Program-made: the position numbers and the translations under genes | Part shown: piece after piece, positions 18,290 to 24,685 of the stretch | How the letters are laid out: each line of letters opens with the position of its first letter | How positions within the stretch are numbered: the stretch's first letter is position 1 | Notes under the pieces: model-generated | Told to the model about the DNA's origin: nothing | Database searches by the model: none | Seen by the model: the letters and a program-made list of their open reading frames with translations, nothing else | Origin: Anaerolineales bacterium | Lineage (GTDB): Bacteria; Chloroflexota; Anaerolineae; Aggregatilineales; UBA2796 | DNA: 64,000 nt | Direction of reading: 5' to 3' | Assembly (NCBI GenBank): GCA_015075625.1 | Contig: JABTTZ010000004.1 | Coordinates: forward strand, 248,001-312,000

Positions 18290-18297
18290 CCCCGATG

Positions 18298-18368
18298 GCT
18301 CTGTAGCTCAATGGTAGAGCAGTGGACTTTTAATCCATTGGTTAAGGGTTCGAGTCCCTTCAGAGTCA
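18298..18368 (+). tRNA. tRNA-Lys(UUU)
   Basis: A full cloverleaf of 71 nt without encoded CCA. Acceptor GGCTCTG pairs with CAGAGTC (one G-T), with discriminator A at 18368. D-arm GCTC/GAGC, anticodon stem GTGGA/TCCAT around loop CTTTTAA (anticodon TTT), T-arm AAGGG-TTCGAGT-CCCTT. A serine-recombinase remnant runs antiparallel into its 3' half, which marks it as the likely attachment site of the neighbouring island. Confidence 0.95.
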
Positions 18369-19049
18369 TCGGATTGGACGTAGTCCGAACATTGACCAGC
18401 CATCGCGCTGGTCTTTGTTTTTCCCTCAAGCGCACTACCGCCACTCTTCTGTACCCGCTCGGTCACATGCCGCAAGTAAGAGAAGGGGGGGAGTAACTCC
18501 AGCCGGACGATCATTCCCTCCGGGTTGACCACAACCCGCTCGATCATCTGACGCAGCAAGTCTTGTTGGTCGCTGCGCAATAATATTTCATACAGTATAC
18601 CTAATTTTGCAATTATGGTGAGCGCTTCATCCAGATCGTCGATATAGCTCTCACATTTCTGGTCGAGCAAATCCAGACTTGAGCGCAGTTTATGGCGCTT
18701 GTCCTGCCATTCTGCCCACAAATTACGCCAGTTTTCCTCTGTGACCATCGTCGCTGCGTAGAGCCGCAGGACTCTTGCTTCCTCTTCATCGATCTGCTTC
18801 AATGCGCGTTCTATCTCGGTTCGTTCATCCGGGCGCAGCCGTCCGAGTTTGTCAGCCACTTCGTTGATATAGTAATCACGAATTAGAGGCATTAACGCAT
18901 CATCGACCTGAACCTGCTGGAGGTGGGAAGCAAGCTGGCTTTCAACCTCAGAACAAAGAAAATGAATGGGGTGACGATCTAATCGGTAATGCGCGGTTCC
19001 ACCGCCTGAGCGCCCAGGTATTCTCCCAATAGGCGAACTTCTCTCTCAA
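18308..19049 (-). pseudogene. serine recombinase, C-terminal remnant ending in tRNA-Lys
   Basis: On the minus strand the readable protein starts near 19049 with PGRSGGGTAHYRLDRHPI (decayed zinc-ribbon region; cysteines mostly lost). It continues through LQQVQVDDALMPLIRDYYI, LGRLRPDERTEIERALKQID and DDLDEALTIIAKLGILYEIL to QMIERVVVNPEGMIVRLELLPP. These are the helical and C-terminal parts of large serine recombinases. The catalytic resolvase domain is missing. The last ~20 codons (GTRTLNQWIKSPLLYH) are the antisense translation of the tRNA, and the frame ends inside it at 18308. That is the arrangement left when a large serine integrase inserts its element into a tRNA gene. Confidence 0.8.
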
Positions 19050-19143: not shown

Positions 19144-19725
19144 CTATAGCGAAAGGGGTTTTGTACCAGTGGCCAGTAAGTTCTCAGTCTCTTTTGCCTC
19201 AAACGTCGTCACAGGCTTACCAGCGGCGATCAACACCCGCGCAAAAGTCTCTGTCTTACCGCCGGGTTCAGCGTAGGCGATAAATACCTGTTGAGCCAGA
19301 GCAGCGACCAGTTGATTGCGGAGTGCTGCCATTTCCTGCGTAGCACGAGGTTGATTTTCTGCAAATGGTGAGACGATGAGCAGCCGCTGCTGTTCAATTG
19401 GCTTTTTCCAATCCGCGGGGACGCGCATGTTTTGGATGCTGCGTGCAGGACAGATAACAATCGCAGAGTTTCCATGCAGCAGTGTCACCAATACTTCTTT
19501 TTCCACCGGTGAATGAAAGCCGCTGATAACACTAATGTGCTTATCCTTCAGTATTTGAGCCAGATCATACGTTTTGAGGATGATGGATACAGGACACCTC
19601 ACCGAACAAAACAGGGCGAACAGTGACTCGTTGAGCAATCCTGAGTCGCCAATCACTGAGAGGCATTCGATTTTGGGAATAAGCTGGCTGAGTGATGCGG
19701 ACGCTTCTACGCGCTTAATTTCCAC
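19144..19725 (-). CDS. short DprA/Smf-like Rossmann protein (third gene of cassette)
   Basis: 193 residues. The pattern is that of the DprA/Smf Rossmann core: VISGFHSPVEKEVL at 66-79 (in place of SGgA.GID..AH), VICPARSIQNMRVP at 90-103, RLLIVSPF at 114-121, RATQEMAALRNQLVAALAQ at 127-145, and the phosphate-binding EPGGKTETF at 153-161. It lacks the SAM and winged-helix domains of true DprA and is half its length. DprA proper loads RecA onto incoming single-stranded DNA. Short DprA-like proteins outside competence loci have been linked to nucleic-acid or nucleotide sensing in conflict systems, but no role is shown here. It starts 18 bp after the PIN gene, so it is in the same operon. Confidence 0.68.
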   Translation of the reverse strand: MEIKRVEASASLSQLIPKIECLSVIGDSGLLNESLFALFCSVRCPVSIILKTYDLAQILKDKHISVISGFHSPVEKEVLVTLLHGNSAIVICPARSIQNMRVPADWKKPIEQQRLLIVSPFAENQPRATQEMAALRNQLVAALAQQVFIAYAEPGGKTETFARVLIAAGKPVTTFEAKETENLLATGTKPLSL

Positions 19726-19743
19726 GACGGCGACATCCTGCGA

Positions 19744-20247
19744 TTATTCTTGAGGATCGTCGGGAAAGACCAATGGAAGTCTTGGGGAACTGACATAGGG
19801 CTCCAAGATATCATAGCCAATGATGCTGCTGAATTTGTTGAGCTTTTGATCGTATGTAAAGCATTCAGTAACGCCCACATATCTTGCTGATGTTAGGTGA
19901 ATTGCGTCATTGGTTCGCAGAGCATATTTCAAGCTAATTGCCTGTCGAATCAAATCTCGTGCCTGACGTGCAATCAACTCATTGAAGTCTACAAATTCGA
20001 TGAGCGAGTTATCACCCCAGAAACTTTCGAGCCCGTCATACACCTTCTTATCCAGCCGATTATGATTCTTCTCCTCAGCTACATGTGAAACTTCGGTGAT
20101 ACTGACCACTGAAGTCACGATTTTACGCTGATTATTTTTCTGCACTTCCTCAAACAGTTGGTCAAGGATGGTTATCCGCCCTGCTTCAGCATTAAAATAA
20201 GCGAGGAACACATTGGCATCGCAATAAACGTAACTAATTTTCGGCAT
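19744..20247 (-). CDS. PIN-domain ribonuclease (VapC-like, second gene of cassette)
   Basis: 167 residues. PIN acidic residues are in place: D10 (YVYCDANVFLAYF), E52 (SITEVSHVAE), D114 (LRTNDAIHLTSA) and D133 (FTYDQKL). The pattern is that of VapC-like toxins, which cut tRNA or rRNA. It overlaps the end of the preceding gene by 14 bp, as toxin genes commonly overlap their antitoxin genes, yet the preceding protein (254 aa) is far larger than a VapB antitoxin and has no obvious DNA-binding motif. A C-terminal tail (LPLVFPDDPQE) extends past the fold. Low-G+C codon use relative to the flanking housekeeping genes fits acquisition with the island. Confidence 0.82.
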   Translation of the reverse strand: MPKISYVYCDANVFLAYFNAEAGRITILDQLFEEVQKNNQRKIVTSVVSITEVSHVAEEKNHNRLDKKVYDGLESFWGDNSLIEFVDFNELIARQARDLIRQAISLKYALRTNDAIHLTSARYVGVTECFTYDQKLNKFSSIIGYDILEPYVSSPRLPLVFPDDPQE

Positions 20248-20998
20248 CGCGCAACCGCCTTATGCTGACTTCCGCTGGTTCAGGTTCTCCACTTCCAGCC
20301 AAAATACCCCGCGCCATACGATAACTGCCGGGTTCGATCATCGGCACAAAATCAATCGAGGTAATCTCGCGTACACTTACAGGTTGCCCGCTGTCTGGTT
20401 GGCGTGTGACACGCCCACTGACGAAAACGACCTTATCCCAAATATCCGCGAGGATGTCTTGACGATCTTCTTTGACGTAGCAGCTTACCGGTTTATCGAA
20501 CACCCCGTCATAGAGCGTAAAGCGCAGTTTACCGCGATTACTGATGGACTGAACACGCCCTTTCACCGATCCGAAAGATACCATTGGCTTGGCAGTAGTG
20601 ATTTTTTGGGTATCAAACAAACCATAGATGATTGCTTCTTTACGAGCCGTGCCAAGCCGTACTGCCTTAATATCGCCACCGATGAGCTTGGTGAGCAATT
20701 CAGCTTCTCTGGCAACATGGCGGGAAAAGGGGATTGGTTGGTGCTGCTGGAGAGACTGTCCGACATCTTCAAATGCCGAGACAACCCGCAGCACAGGTTC
20801 TTCGGTATCCGCACGTCCGGCAACCGCCATAATCGCGCTACCGTACTGCAAATCCTCTAAATCCCATTCAATTTTTGTATCTGCCGCGACTTCCTGGGTG
20901 AGTTGCAAAAGCAGTTTGTGAAAATGGTTGACCGCTTCGGAAAACTGGTCGAGCCTTACATCACCCTCAAGCGCAAGCACAAGTGTCGTATCAGGCAT
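20234..20998 (-). CDS. unrecognised protein, first gene of the PIN/DprA-like cassette
   Basis: About 254 residues from the ATG at 20998 (GAGG about 6 nt upstream; a GTG at 21013 is the alternative). I do not recognise the family. The N-terminal ~95 residues (LVLALEGDVRLDQFSEAVNH, HKLLLQLTQEVAADTKIEWD) look like an alpha/beta domain. The middle is charged (LLTKLIGGDIKAVRLGTARK). Residues ~150-225 (VKGRVQSISNRGKLRFTLYD, KPVSCYVKEDRQDI, KVVFVSGRVTRQPDSG) resemble an OB-like beta barrel. The C-terminus IRRLRDAEN overlaps the PIN gene start. By position it could be the antitoxin or a nucleic-acid-binding sensor for the PIN protein; this is inference. TATAAT on the minus strand at 21037-21042 may be its -10 box. 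Confidence 0.72.
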   Translation of the reverse strand: MPDTTLVLALEGDVRLDQFSEAVNHFHKLLLQLTQEVAADTKIEWDLEDLQYGSAIMAVAGRADTEEPVLRVVSAFEDVGQSLQQHQPIPFSRHVAREAELLTKLIGGDIKAVRLGTARKEAIIYGLFDTQKITTAKPMVSFGSVKGRVQSISNRGKLRFTLYDGVFDKPVSCYVKEDRQDILADIWDKVVFVSGRVTRQPDSGQPVSVREITSIDFVPMIEPGSYRMARGILAGSGEPEPAEVSIRRLRDAEN

Positions 20999-21086
20999 AA
21001 CCGCCTCAATCACCGAACCTATGTTCTGTTTATCTCATTATAATCCATATTTACCTCTATTTTACACGCAATTGATTTTGCTTGAC

Positions 21087-21226
21087 TCATTCTTCCTCCC
21101 CCTCATCCCCGCCGAGATCATCACCCATGCGGTACTTGATGTCATAGTTGATGATGAAGTCCAGTTCTTCATCGGTGAAGCCGTAGTGACGTGCCAGCAC
21201 CCGGTCAATTTCATCTATTATCAATA
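21087..21226 (-). pseudogene. C-terminal 46 codons of an Eco57I/PglX-like DNA methyltransferase
   Basis: The minus strand next to the insertion sequence reads LIIDEIDRVLARHYGFTDEE, then LDFIINYDIKYRMGDDLGG and a Glu-rich end before TGA at 21087-21089. 'EID..LA.HYGF..EELDFI.NYDIKYRMG' is the conserved C-terminus of large Eco57I-type and BREX PglX-type adenine methyltransferases. Everything upstream has been removed where the IS starts at 21227. It shows that a bigger restriction or BREX-like locus once stood here. Confidence 0.7.
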
Positions 21227-22639
21227 CCTTCGCCAAGGAAAAGGTAGGGCTTTTGAGGTAGAGTAAGAGTTTGCGAAAACGAACTACTCAAAACTGACAA
21301 AAGCCCATGGGTGAGATTGTAACACCGATAGCTTGCCTGACACCGTATGTAACGACAACAACCATGCGCCACATGGCACAGATCATCTTGGCGCTACTGT
21401 GCATCCCAGATCGGGTGACGCTGTTAGGACTATCACGCTGGATGGAAAGCGGTGGTAGCTATCGAACATTGCAGCGTTGGTCACAAACACCGTTGGTCTG
21501 GGCGCAGGTGTTGTGGGCCGTCGTGCGTAGCTACCTGCTGCATCCGACAGGGAGGTATCTGTTGGCTGGCGATGACGTGGTGGACTCGAAAGCGGGTCAG
21601 GCCACGCACGGGTTGGGGCGCTTCTATTCAAGCTTGGCTGGAGGTGTCATTCCGAGCGTGTCGTTTTTAGTGGTTTCCCTAATTGATATAGAGCGGCGGC
21701 GCTCGTATCCATTGCAGGTGGAACAGCGTATGCCGCCGACAGGCGCATCAAACGCGGTGCCTGCTGGCTTACCCAAACACCCGCGCGGACGGCCCAAAGG
21801 GAGTAAGAATCACGCCAAAGCCGTCCCCACCCTCACGCCCGAACTGAGCCTGCTTGAGCAGATGTTGAGGGCGGTGTGTGTCCGCATCGTGCCACTGCGC
21901 GTTGGGCATGTCGTGCTGGATGGCTTTTTCGGGACGTATCCAGCCACTTATATCGTGCAGCAGACGGGTTTGCATATGATTTCCAAATTGCGCCACAATG
22001 CCGCGCTGTACCTGCCCTATGCTGGACCTAAGCCAGTGCGTGGCCCCACGCCACGCTATGGTCAAAAACTCACTTATCACGCGCTACCACCTGAAGCCTT
22101 GTGTCAGACCGTCATGCAGGGTCACTACCGTACGGATACCTACCAAGTCACCGCCCTACACCATGACTTCCCTGACCCCCTCAATGTGGTCATTTTGGTC
22201 AAAACCAATTTGCGCACAGGCCGTACCAGCCATGTCGTCCTGTTTAGCACTGACTTGACCTTATCAGCCGCCCAACTCGTCGATTACTACAGCTTGCGCT
22301 TTCAAATTGAGTTCAATTTCCGCGATGCCAAACAGTATTGGGGGCTGGAAGATTTCATGAATGTCTCTCCGATTGCCCTTACGAATGCCGTCAACCTCGC
22401 CTTTTTTATGGTCAATTTCTCGACCGTGCTCTTGCTACCCCATCGTCAAGCTCAAACCGATTTTAGTGTCCTCGACTTGAAGGCTCACTATCGTGCCCAA
22501 CGCTATCTCGACGAAACAATTAAATGCCTTCCGACTGTGCCCACTCCTGATTTAATCTCGCTCATCAGGCAAAAACTCAGCGCACTGGGCGGCCTTCGCA
22601 CTCGTCAACTTCAAAAATCCCCCGCATAATTGGCGAAGG
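21227..22639 (+). mobile_element. IS4-type insertion sequence (about 1.41 kb)
   Basis: Short inverted ends CCTTCGCCAA (21227-21236) and TTGGCGAAGG (22630-22639) flank one intact transposase gene. The exact outer boundary and the target duplication are not evident: the flanks ATCAATA and GATTGCT do not match, which suggests rearrangement after insertion or that the true ends lie a few bases outward. It separates a methyltransferase tail on the left from an RHS gene tail on the right. Confidence 0.75.
21307..22629 (+). CDS. IS4-superfamily DDE transposase
   Basis: 440 residues, complete. First catalytic Asp in LLAGDDVVDSKAGQATHG near residue 89, second in HVVLDGFFGTYPAT near 205, and the Glu in YYSLRFQIEFNFRDAKQYWG near 335. 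The last segment matches the Y-(2)-R-(3)-E-(6)-K signature of the IS4 superfamily. A Lys/Arg-rich insertion with RGRPKGSKN (an AT-hook-like sequence) sits before the second Asp. Start: the ATG at 21307 lies right after CCC; weak ribosome site. Being full-length it may be the youngest element in the island. Confidence 0.85.
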   Translation: MGEIVTPIACLTPYVTTTTMRHMAQIILALLCIPDRVTLLGLSRWMESGGSYRTLQRWSQTPLVWAQVLWAVVRSYLLHPTGRYLLAGDDVVDSKAGQATHGLGRFYSSLAGGVIPSVSFLVVSLIDIERRRSYPLQVEQRMPPTGASNAVPAGLPKHPRGRPKGSKNHAKAVPTLTPELSLLEQMLRAVCVRIVPLRVGHVVLDGFFGTYPATYIVQQTGLHMISKLRHNAALYLPYAGPKPVRGPTPRYGQKLTYHALPPEALCQTVMQGHYRTDTYQVTALHHDFPDPLNVVILVKTNLRTGRTSHVVLFSTDLTLSAAQLVDYYSLRFQIEFNFRDAKQYWGLEDFMNVSPIALTNAVNLAFFMVNFSTVLLLPHRQAQTDFSVLDLKAHYRAQRYLDETIKCLPTVPTPDLISLIRQKLSALGGLRTRQLQKSPA

Positions 22640-22681
22640 GATTGCTAAACATGATGCATTTTTAATTTTAGATACAGGTTA

Positions 22682-23408
22682 ACTGCATTTCCATGCGGTA
22701 ACTAGGTTGTTTGGCGACCACAACACGAGCGGGCAGTACCACACCTACGGCTACGACGGGTCGGGGTTGGTGCGTCATGTGCTGTATGGCAGCGCCCTCA
22801 TCGCCCAGATGAATTACGATCCCTATGGCAACCCCGTGCAGCCTCTCCCCTTTGTCAATCTGTCCACCACCTCCCCAACGGCGTTCGGTTACATCGGGGA
22901 GCCAACCAACTGCTTCGGCGTGGTGAATCTGCGGGCGCGATACTACAATCCACAGCATGGGGTGTTCACGAGTCCCGATCCTGTGCTGGGGGTGGTGGGG
23001 CGCAGCGAGTCGTACAATGGGTATGGCTATGTGGAGGGGAATCCGGTCAATTTTACCGACCCAAGTGGAAAATGCCCTTGGTGCATACCTTTACTTCTAT
23101 GGGGTTTGGGCGCAGGCGCTGCGGCTTTCACGGTAGGAACAGTAGGGTATAAGGTTATTATGCGTGGAAGTTGGGAAGAATCGATTAAGACTGGGCTTGT
23201 ATTTGCTCCATTAGGGGCGATTATTGATGTAATTGGAGGATTTGCCAGGCGTATTGGAGCGCCAGCTGCATTGATAGGAGGAGCAGCTACCGGTGCTGCT
23301 ACATGGAGTAGCCCTTGGGCTTGGACTGCTATGCTCGGTGCCGCTGGTACTACACTTATTGAGTCTGCAACAGGAAGCTATGACCCCTCTCAATCTCTTG
23401 AATTATAA
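22682..23408 (+). pseudogene. RHS-repeat protein, 3' fragment with hydrophobic C-terminal toxin region
   Basis: Open from just after an in-frame stop at 22679-22681, without a convincing start. The first part holds the RHS-associated core: NYDPYGNPVQPLPF, FGYIGEPTNCFGVVNLRARY, YNPQHGVFTSPDPV and NPVNFTDPSGK. After this core, ~95 residues (WCIPLLLWGLGAGAAAF, IGAPAALIGGAATGAATW, AWTAMLGAAGTTLIESATGS) form a Gly/Ala-rich hydrophobic tail, the position of the variable toxin in polymorphic RHS toxins. The sequence suggests a membrane-acting domain. A TTG at 22707 could in principle start a short peptide. The N-terminal shell repeats were lost when the IS4-type element inserted. Confidence 0.78.
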
Positions 23409-24295: not shown

Positions 24296-24685
24296 CTATT
24301 GCGCGATCACGTTCACATCGTAACGGTGCATCATATCGAGTAGCTCTTCACGCTTGATCCGGTACATCTGCCCGCCAGCATAAGCTTTGCGGCGATGACG
24401 GTCAGCCAGTTGCAACCGGTTGAGAATATGCCCAATCCATTGCGTGTGTCCCATCTGTTCTTTCGTATAACTCAACAAGGATTGAACCTGCACGCGCAAA
24501 TCGGTTGCTTTGATCCACATGGTTTCCTTCGGGCAAACAACCACCCGATAGACCATTTCATGCAGCAGCTTTTTTTGACTGCTGCGTTTTAGCTTGTTAT
24601 ACAGTATGCTCACTTTTACAATGATCGTGAGTGCCGCATCCAAATTGGCGATGTGAACATCGTTGTGCGCCTGTAACGACTGTAG
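24296..24685 (-). pseudogene. second serine recombinase C-terminal remnant
   Basis: The minus strand from 24685 reads LQSLQAHNDVHIANLDAALT, IIVKVSILYNKLKRSSQKKL and LHEMVYRVVVCPKETMWIKA, the same helical C-terminal block as in the recombinase remnant at tRNA-Lys but from a different homologue (about half the positions shared in the aligned core). It ends with HTQWIGHILNRLQLADRHRR and YRIKREELLDMMHRY, a helix-turn-helix-like tail. The catalytic domain is missing. With the first remnant it brackets the 18.3-24.7 kb island. Confidence 0.72.

Follow-up and report, generated by a model that had tools for sequence, protein, structure and literature searches.

Three leftward genes in an island of an Anaerolineales genome part, on the evidence of their relatives elsewhere, into a pair and a bystander: genes 1 and 2 appear to be a widespread, previously undescribed toxin–antitoxin-like pair, separate from gene 3, which encodes a short DprA-like protein. 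In our reading, genes 1 and 2 are probably a type II-like toxin–antitoxin module in which a VapC-type RNase (a PIN-domain protein) is paired with a large antitoxin of a new class that carries a predicted OB fold. Below, "the window" means the whole stretch of 64,000 nucleotides that was analysed, and the loci compared with it carry L numbers.

Three genes and a broken operon

The three open reading frames lie where an earlier note on this DNA had placed them, all on the minus strand, and with the spacing that it gave: genes 1 and 2 overlap by 14 nt, and genes 2 and 3 are separated by 18 nt (Table 1). Gene 1 starts with ATG, and the same conserved start (MPDTT) is present at L002, which is the other locus with all three genes contiguous and co-directional; an alternative GTG start lies at 21013. 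All three are real genes and are under purifying selection: against a 97%-identical relative, dN/dS is 0.036 for gene 1, 0.082 for gene 2, and 0.213 for gene 3 (dS 0.36–0.52), values that largely cover the time before the operon was broken and are no proof of current function.

The break is visible directly upstream of gene 1, where a type IIG remnant that is absent from the earlier note is cut off by an insertion sequence (IS). The transposase of the IS occupies 21307–22629, its inverted repeats lie at 21218–21236 and 22630–22648, and a second, partial copy is found elsewhere in the genome. Other pieces of the operon lie on contig C3 of the same genome, at 465007–468250 (L154:8008–11248), and comprise the C-terminal 200 residues of the helicase (SNF2), a DUF262 gene, and residues 1–295 of the type IIG enzyme, 93–94% identical to L002. 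In other words, this genome has a broken restriction operon and has kept the OB-PIN pair along with the DprA-like gene.

The description of the island as recombinase-bounded is a fair one, with an integrase fragment next to tRNA-Lys, a related fragment at 24296–24643, and further integrase fragments elsewhere in the genome. A search for a direct-repeat attachment site gave no convincing duplication of tRNA-Lys. An ORF beyond the IS, at 22707–23408, resembles by eye an RHS repeat-associated core (PHROG 10385, 7e-9) and is apparently a C-terminal fragment.

Table 1. Features of the window, and contents of the slot between the type IIG and DprA-like genes at related loci
Feature	Locus	Position	Strand	Evidence or remark
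Candidate antitoxin P0001 (gene 1)	window	20234..20998	-	ORF, neighbourhood, structure prediction
N-terminal domain of gene 1, residues 1-125	window	20624..20998	-	predicted ferredoxin-like, beta-alpha-beta-beta-alpha-alpha-beta-beta
Predicted OB-fold domain of gene 1, residues 139-219	window	20342..20584	-	VIA on predicted structure
C-terminal helix of gene 1 / putative toxin-binding tail, residues 242-254 (...VSIRRLRDAEN)	window	20237..20275	-	
PIN-domain VapC-type nuclease, candidate toxin P0002 (gene 2)	window	19744..20247	-	PF01850 E=2e-12
Short DprA-like P0003 (gene 3), 193 aa	window	19144..19725	-	PF02481 E=4e-8, neighbourhood
Type IIG C-terminal remnant, ~43 codons	window	21087..21217	-	tblastn, 94% identical to L002 residues 1044-1075
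IS truncating the type IIG gene	window	21218..22648	+	PF13546 DDE_5 2.5e-29
Integrase/recombinase C-terminal fragment	window	18308..18892	-	PHROG 95 E=3e-9; overlaps opposite-strand tRNA-Lys
tRNA-Lys(ttt)	window	18296..18370	+	probable island integration site
Slot: OB-PIN	L002 and window			
Slot: HicAB	L094	9400-10080		
Slot: RHH gene with PIN start, DUF4160/DUF2442	L080	6180-8870		
Slot: nucleotidyltransferase (MNT)	L088	9280-11720		
Slot: DUF3644	L086			
Slot: DUF262-HNH	L096			
Slot: DUF6883/DUF4926	L085	4180-4995		after type IIG remnant
Slot: nothing	L056			

The OB-PIN pair and its tail motif

PIN toxins are among the commonest prokaryotic toxins, and the antitoxins so far known to go with them are small proteins that bind DNA; VapC-type PIN proteins are site-specific RNases. 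Among 20 relatives of P0002, the four acidic residues pointed out in the earlier note are invariant (D10, E52, and D114) or nearly so (D133), and its closest solved relatives are FitB and VapC. Because the genome of 4.68 Mb has only four PIN loci, the adjacency of the OB and PIN genes is not a matter of chance. A weak second PIN match (25 bits) lies in the window at 1471–1794 on the minus strand, inside an ORF of 361–367 aa.

Gene 1 had been called OB-like and without a recognisable family, and both statements stand. P0001 itself has no significant Pfam or NCBIfam match, no model in Pfam, NCBIfam, PADLOC, or PHROGs accounts for either gene 1 or the scanned members of its family, and in Pfam and NCBIfam the family matches no known antitoxin family and no AbrB, RHH, Phd, or HTH domain. 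The OB guess holds as a predicted fold: with VIA, the domain reaches Z 9.5 to Streptomyces SSB and 9.4 to PriB, and Pfam tRNA_anti-codon matches members of the gene 1 family at up to E=4e-4. The N-terminal domain, modelled alone (AF2 pLDDT 82), gave many ferredoxin-like rows, the best at a weak VIA Z of 7.2. These predictions were built from 15 sequences, and the full-length AF2 model, which ends in a helix at residues 242–253, is of moderate quality (pLDDT 72, pTM 0.45). When the OB profile was run against PDB sequences, it returned coiled-coil noise only. Whole-length matches of gene 1 to phage proteins in BFVD, among them the DUF6575 protein Q6NE06 of Leptospira phage LE1, were rejected at low TM-scores of 0.33–0.38 and rmsd of 12–16.

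A search of 400 Chloroflexota genomes found relatives of gene 1 in 23 of them, at 24 places in total, and at 20 of these places a PIN gene follows directly (one of them frameshifted). At L011 (1110–2178), the OB gene is intact and the PIN gene is reduced to a stub of 29 residues; at three places no PIN gene was found, gene 1 being fragmentary at two of them and intact at L012 (1456–2271). For L011 and L012, loss of the toxin with retention of the candidate antitoxin appears to be the better fit. On viral contigs, five loci came from the OB query and 16 from the PIN profile, and both genes are present in all 21. The OB gene lies upstream at all 16 of the latter, 13 of which are on contigs new with respect to the OB query, several of them near-identical phages. 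The two genes overlap or lie at most 8 nt apart in 32/32 measured pairs, and the distance matrices of the OB and PIN proteins correlate (r=0.89). A further, distant pair was found with the PIN profile at L141:591–2028 (OB E=6.5e-29).

The carriers suggest that OB-PIN is a mobile module of prophages, a plasmid, and islands. In the Pseudomonas aeruginosa phage vB_PaeS_AV001, the pair comes directly after the repressor (L078:8001–9360; PQ349086.1 35161–36520), and its PIN gene is annotated, probably wrongly, as "repressor protein". A Methylobacterium plasmid carries the pair as well, with its PIN protein named "VapC family toxin" by NCBI, and at several viral loci the pair sits between terminase, portal, or capsid genes. 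Such a position among structural genes is usual for phage cargo. The named phage and plasmid records were reached only with the divergent members L070 and L076; tblastn searches with P0001 against plasmids and phages, and with L022 and L065 against plasmids, gave no match, and at the DNA level no homologue of this phage pair was found in E. coli.

The nearest PIN relatives that have no OB partner are accompanied by short antitoxins, and the antitoxin at L146 is a clear MazE/AbrB member. The C-termini of these short proteins (...SYVDEMRDEW, ...EDYIRQERDSW, and ...KYLDGERDAW) resemble those of the gene 1 relatives (...IRRLRDAE, ...EFVRNIRDEWD, and ...DYVRELRSGW). Within the last 18 residues, the tail pattern is present in 26/36 members of the gene 1 family, in 8/8 short VapB-type antitoxins, and in 8/318 controls, which were unrelated long ORFs taken from the loci in place of a curated proteome. 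The shared stretch is short, and the members of the family, being related, are no independent sample. A score-based comparison agrees with the count; its Mann-Whitney p of 1e-15 cannot, because of this relatedness, be read as a probability. About a quarter of the members have no strict motif, and L065, L069, L021, L007, and L008 have no clear tail. Because the motif is shared with VapB-type antitoxins, we read gene 1 as a candidate antitoxin in which a VapB-like tail is joined to a new kind of body; C-terminal tails of this sort block the toxin in type II systems (PMC4803016).

Gene 3 and the PLD-SNF2/type IIG operon

Gene 3 encodes a DprA-type Rossmann core only, as had been noted (PF02481, 33 bits against a cut-off of 29.6), and with 193 aa it has no room for a SAM or winged-helix domain. 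With only 26.7 bits, it falls well short of the cut-off of the DprA equivalog TIGR00732, which is 191. PADLOC scores P0003 against PsyrA (5.8e-14) and weakly against ShosA, and a PDB search with P0003 gave nothing meaningful.

Its neighbourhood points to another operon. Among gene 3 relatives of at least 40% identity, none lies beside OB-PIN outside the lineage of the window; the window and a single 97%-identical relative are the only places where the two meet. A PLD-SNF2 helicase (~1130 aa) and a type IIG restriction-methyltransferase (~1100 aa; the L002 enzyme scores 1143 bits against PADLOC PDLC03628) adjoin the DprA-like gene in 11/11 close relatives with enough intact flank (L080, L082, L083, L086, L088, L091, L094, L095, L096, L056, and L002). 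The sole assessable exception, L097, is a distant relative (28%). In most relatives, the order is helicase, type IIG gene, variable slot, and DprA-like gene. By gene neighbourhood, the DprA-like gene thus belongs at the 3' end of the PLD-SNF2/type IIG operon and lies outside the OB-PIN module. Judged from the relatives in Table 1, the slot repeatedly holds toxin–antitoxin-type genes. We found no description of this operon with its slot in the literature searched.

The earlier note had proposed that all three genes form one cassette, with the DprA-like protein as the sensor of a signal, the PIN protein as the effector, and the OB protein as its restraint, and had named homologues that are never adjacent elsewhere as an outcome that would speak against this. 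Because gene 3 is tied to the other operon and genes 1 and 2 are paired elsewhere, the neighbourhood survey gave this outcome for the third gene alone. What stands of the proposal is a toxin- or effector-like PIN protein and a restrainer-like gene 1 product, as suggested by the strict pairing, the antitoxin-first overlapping order, the VapB-like tail, and the decay of the toxin with the antitoxin kept; the DprA-like sensor and the three-component system find no support.

Interpretation and comparison with known systems

The toxin–antitoxin reading would work as follows. The PIN protein would be a VapC-type ribonuclease and would be toxic, and the C-terminal helix of gene 1, with a motif like the ...Y-V-x-x-x-R-D-x-W of VapB, would bind and block its active site. 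The predicted ferredoxin-like and OB part would stand in for the AbrB, RHH, or Phd domain of an ordinary VapB, and the OB part may bind nucleic acid, for autoregulation or for the sensing of infection. In the lineage of the window, the pair occupies the accessory slot that separates the type IIG gene from the DprA-like gene of a defence operon; the IS later broke this operon, and the pair and the DprA-like gene stayed behind. A more far-reaching version is speculative, and we give it somewhat low credence: a dual-purpose antitoxin whose tail holds the RNase inactive and whose OB part reads an infection signal (ssDNA, RNA, or loss of an SSB partner). The result would be an infection-triggered immunity module, spread by prophages and able to settle in restriction operons, where it would act as a backup suicide effector.

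Other explanations must be set against the same observations. Instead of a toxin–antitoxin module, OB-PIN might be a defence system of two components, with the OB protein sensing phage ssDNA, RNA, or an SSB-bound state and activating an otherwise harmless PIN protein, so that both are needed. The frequent location on prophages, including one beside a repressor, and the SSB/PriB-like OB fold agree with this, and there is a tested precedent in DS-5, a two-gene defence system found with DefensePredictor that consists of a PIN RNase and a DUF5830/AcrIF4-like partner; the partner is required, yet its loss is not toxic, so that DS-5 behaved experimentally as a non-toxin–antitoxin system (PMC13092281). 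DS-5 resembles OB-PIN as a two-gene PIN module whose partner is not a standard antitoxin, but DUF5830 was found in 0/21 OB family members at E<=1, the two being set apart by description and by the DUF5830 profile only, and AcrIF4 is absent among the matches listed for the N-terminal domain model of gene 1, which does not exclude it. The antitoxin-first overlapping order and the VapB-like tail also fit poorly with an activator, and the solitary OB gene of L012 and the PIN stub beside an intact OB gene at L011 fit toxin loss better, so that we regard this explanation as unlikely.

Alternatively, OB-PIN might serve the type IIG/helicase operon as an addiction guard or as a backup suicide effector; it would be set free once restriction-modification fails or becomes blocked, and the DprA-like protein might link the two. 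The slot indeed receives toxin–antitoxin-type or RNase-linked genes again and again (HicAB, MNT, RHH, and DUF3644), and backup suicidal RNase effectors have been proposed inside BREX and BREX-related loci (PMC12839542). Those loci are alike in having HEPN, PIN, or MNT-HEPN modules inside a restriction-modification-like operon with an HKD-helicase, and differ in that the core here consists of PLD-SNF2, type IIG, and DprA-like genes and lacks both the ATPase (DUF499/BrxC) and PglZ. However, OB-PIN stands alone at all other loci examined; it persists here after the restriction-modification gene was broken, and some type IIG-DprA operons, such as L056, have no insert, all of which makes a guard or backup role improbable. 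The three-gene cassette can draw on the contiguous, co-directional genes of the window and L002, all under purifying selection, and on the DprA-like proteins that are the antitoxins of PsyrTA and ShosTA. P0003 alone scores against these, but no PsyrT- or ShosT-type toxin lies beside it, its neighbours being PIN, OB, and an integrase fragment. Since the DprA-like gene is absent from every other OB-PIN locus, OB-PIN is absent from every other DprA-like locus, and the DprA-like gene is tied to PLD-SNF2/type IIG, we consider such a cassette highly improbable.

Among known systems, the toxin–antitoxin reading of OB-PIN places it closest to VapBC and FitAB, with which it shares a PIN toxin with four acidic residues, an antitoxin gene that comes first and overlaps, and, in most family members, an R-D motif in the putative C-terminal tail of the antitoxin. 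It differs in that its antitoxin has ~250–290 aa and a predicted ferredoxin-like plus OB architecture, whereas that of VapBC is of the AbrB, RHH, or Phd type. Makarova 2009 likewise predicted new PIN-linked antitoxin families from strict pairing with PIN genes, namely COG2442/DUF433, COG2880, COG1753, and MerR-like families, all of them small DNA-binding proteins (PMC2701414); the OB family is not among the families named in the text searched. The literature searched contains no description of an OB-fold or ferredoxin-OB antitoxin for PIN. PIN–antitoxin pairs are already known, and what would be new is the large ferredoxin-like plus OB antitoxin body.

The operon with its type IIG/DprA slot offers a parallel to the BREX-related backup RNase effectors, and the recurrent slot offers a definite site at which to examine whether modules of this kind serve restriction systems as guards or as backups. 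If the toxin–antitoxin reading is true, OB-PIN would represent a new antitoxin architecture in Chloroflexota, proteobacterial phages, and a plasmid, and would provide a directly testable link from a nucleic-acid-binding fold to the release of an RNase.
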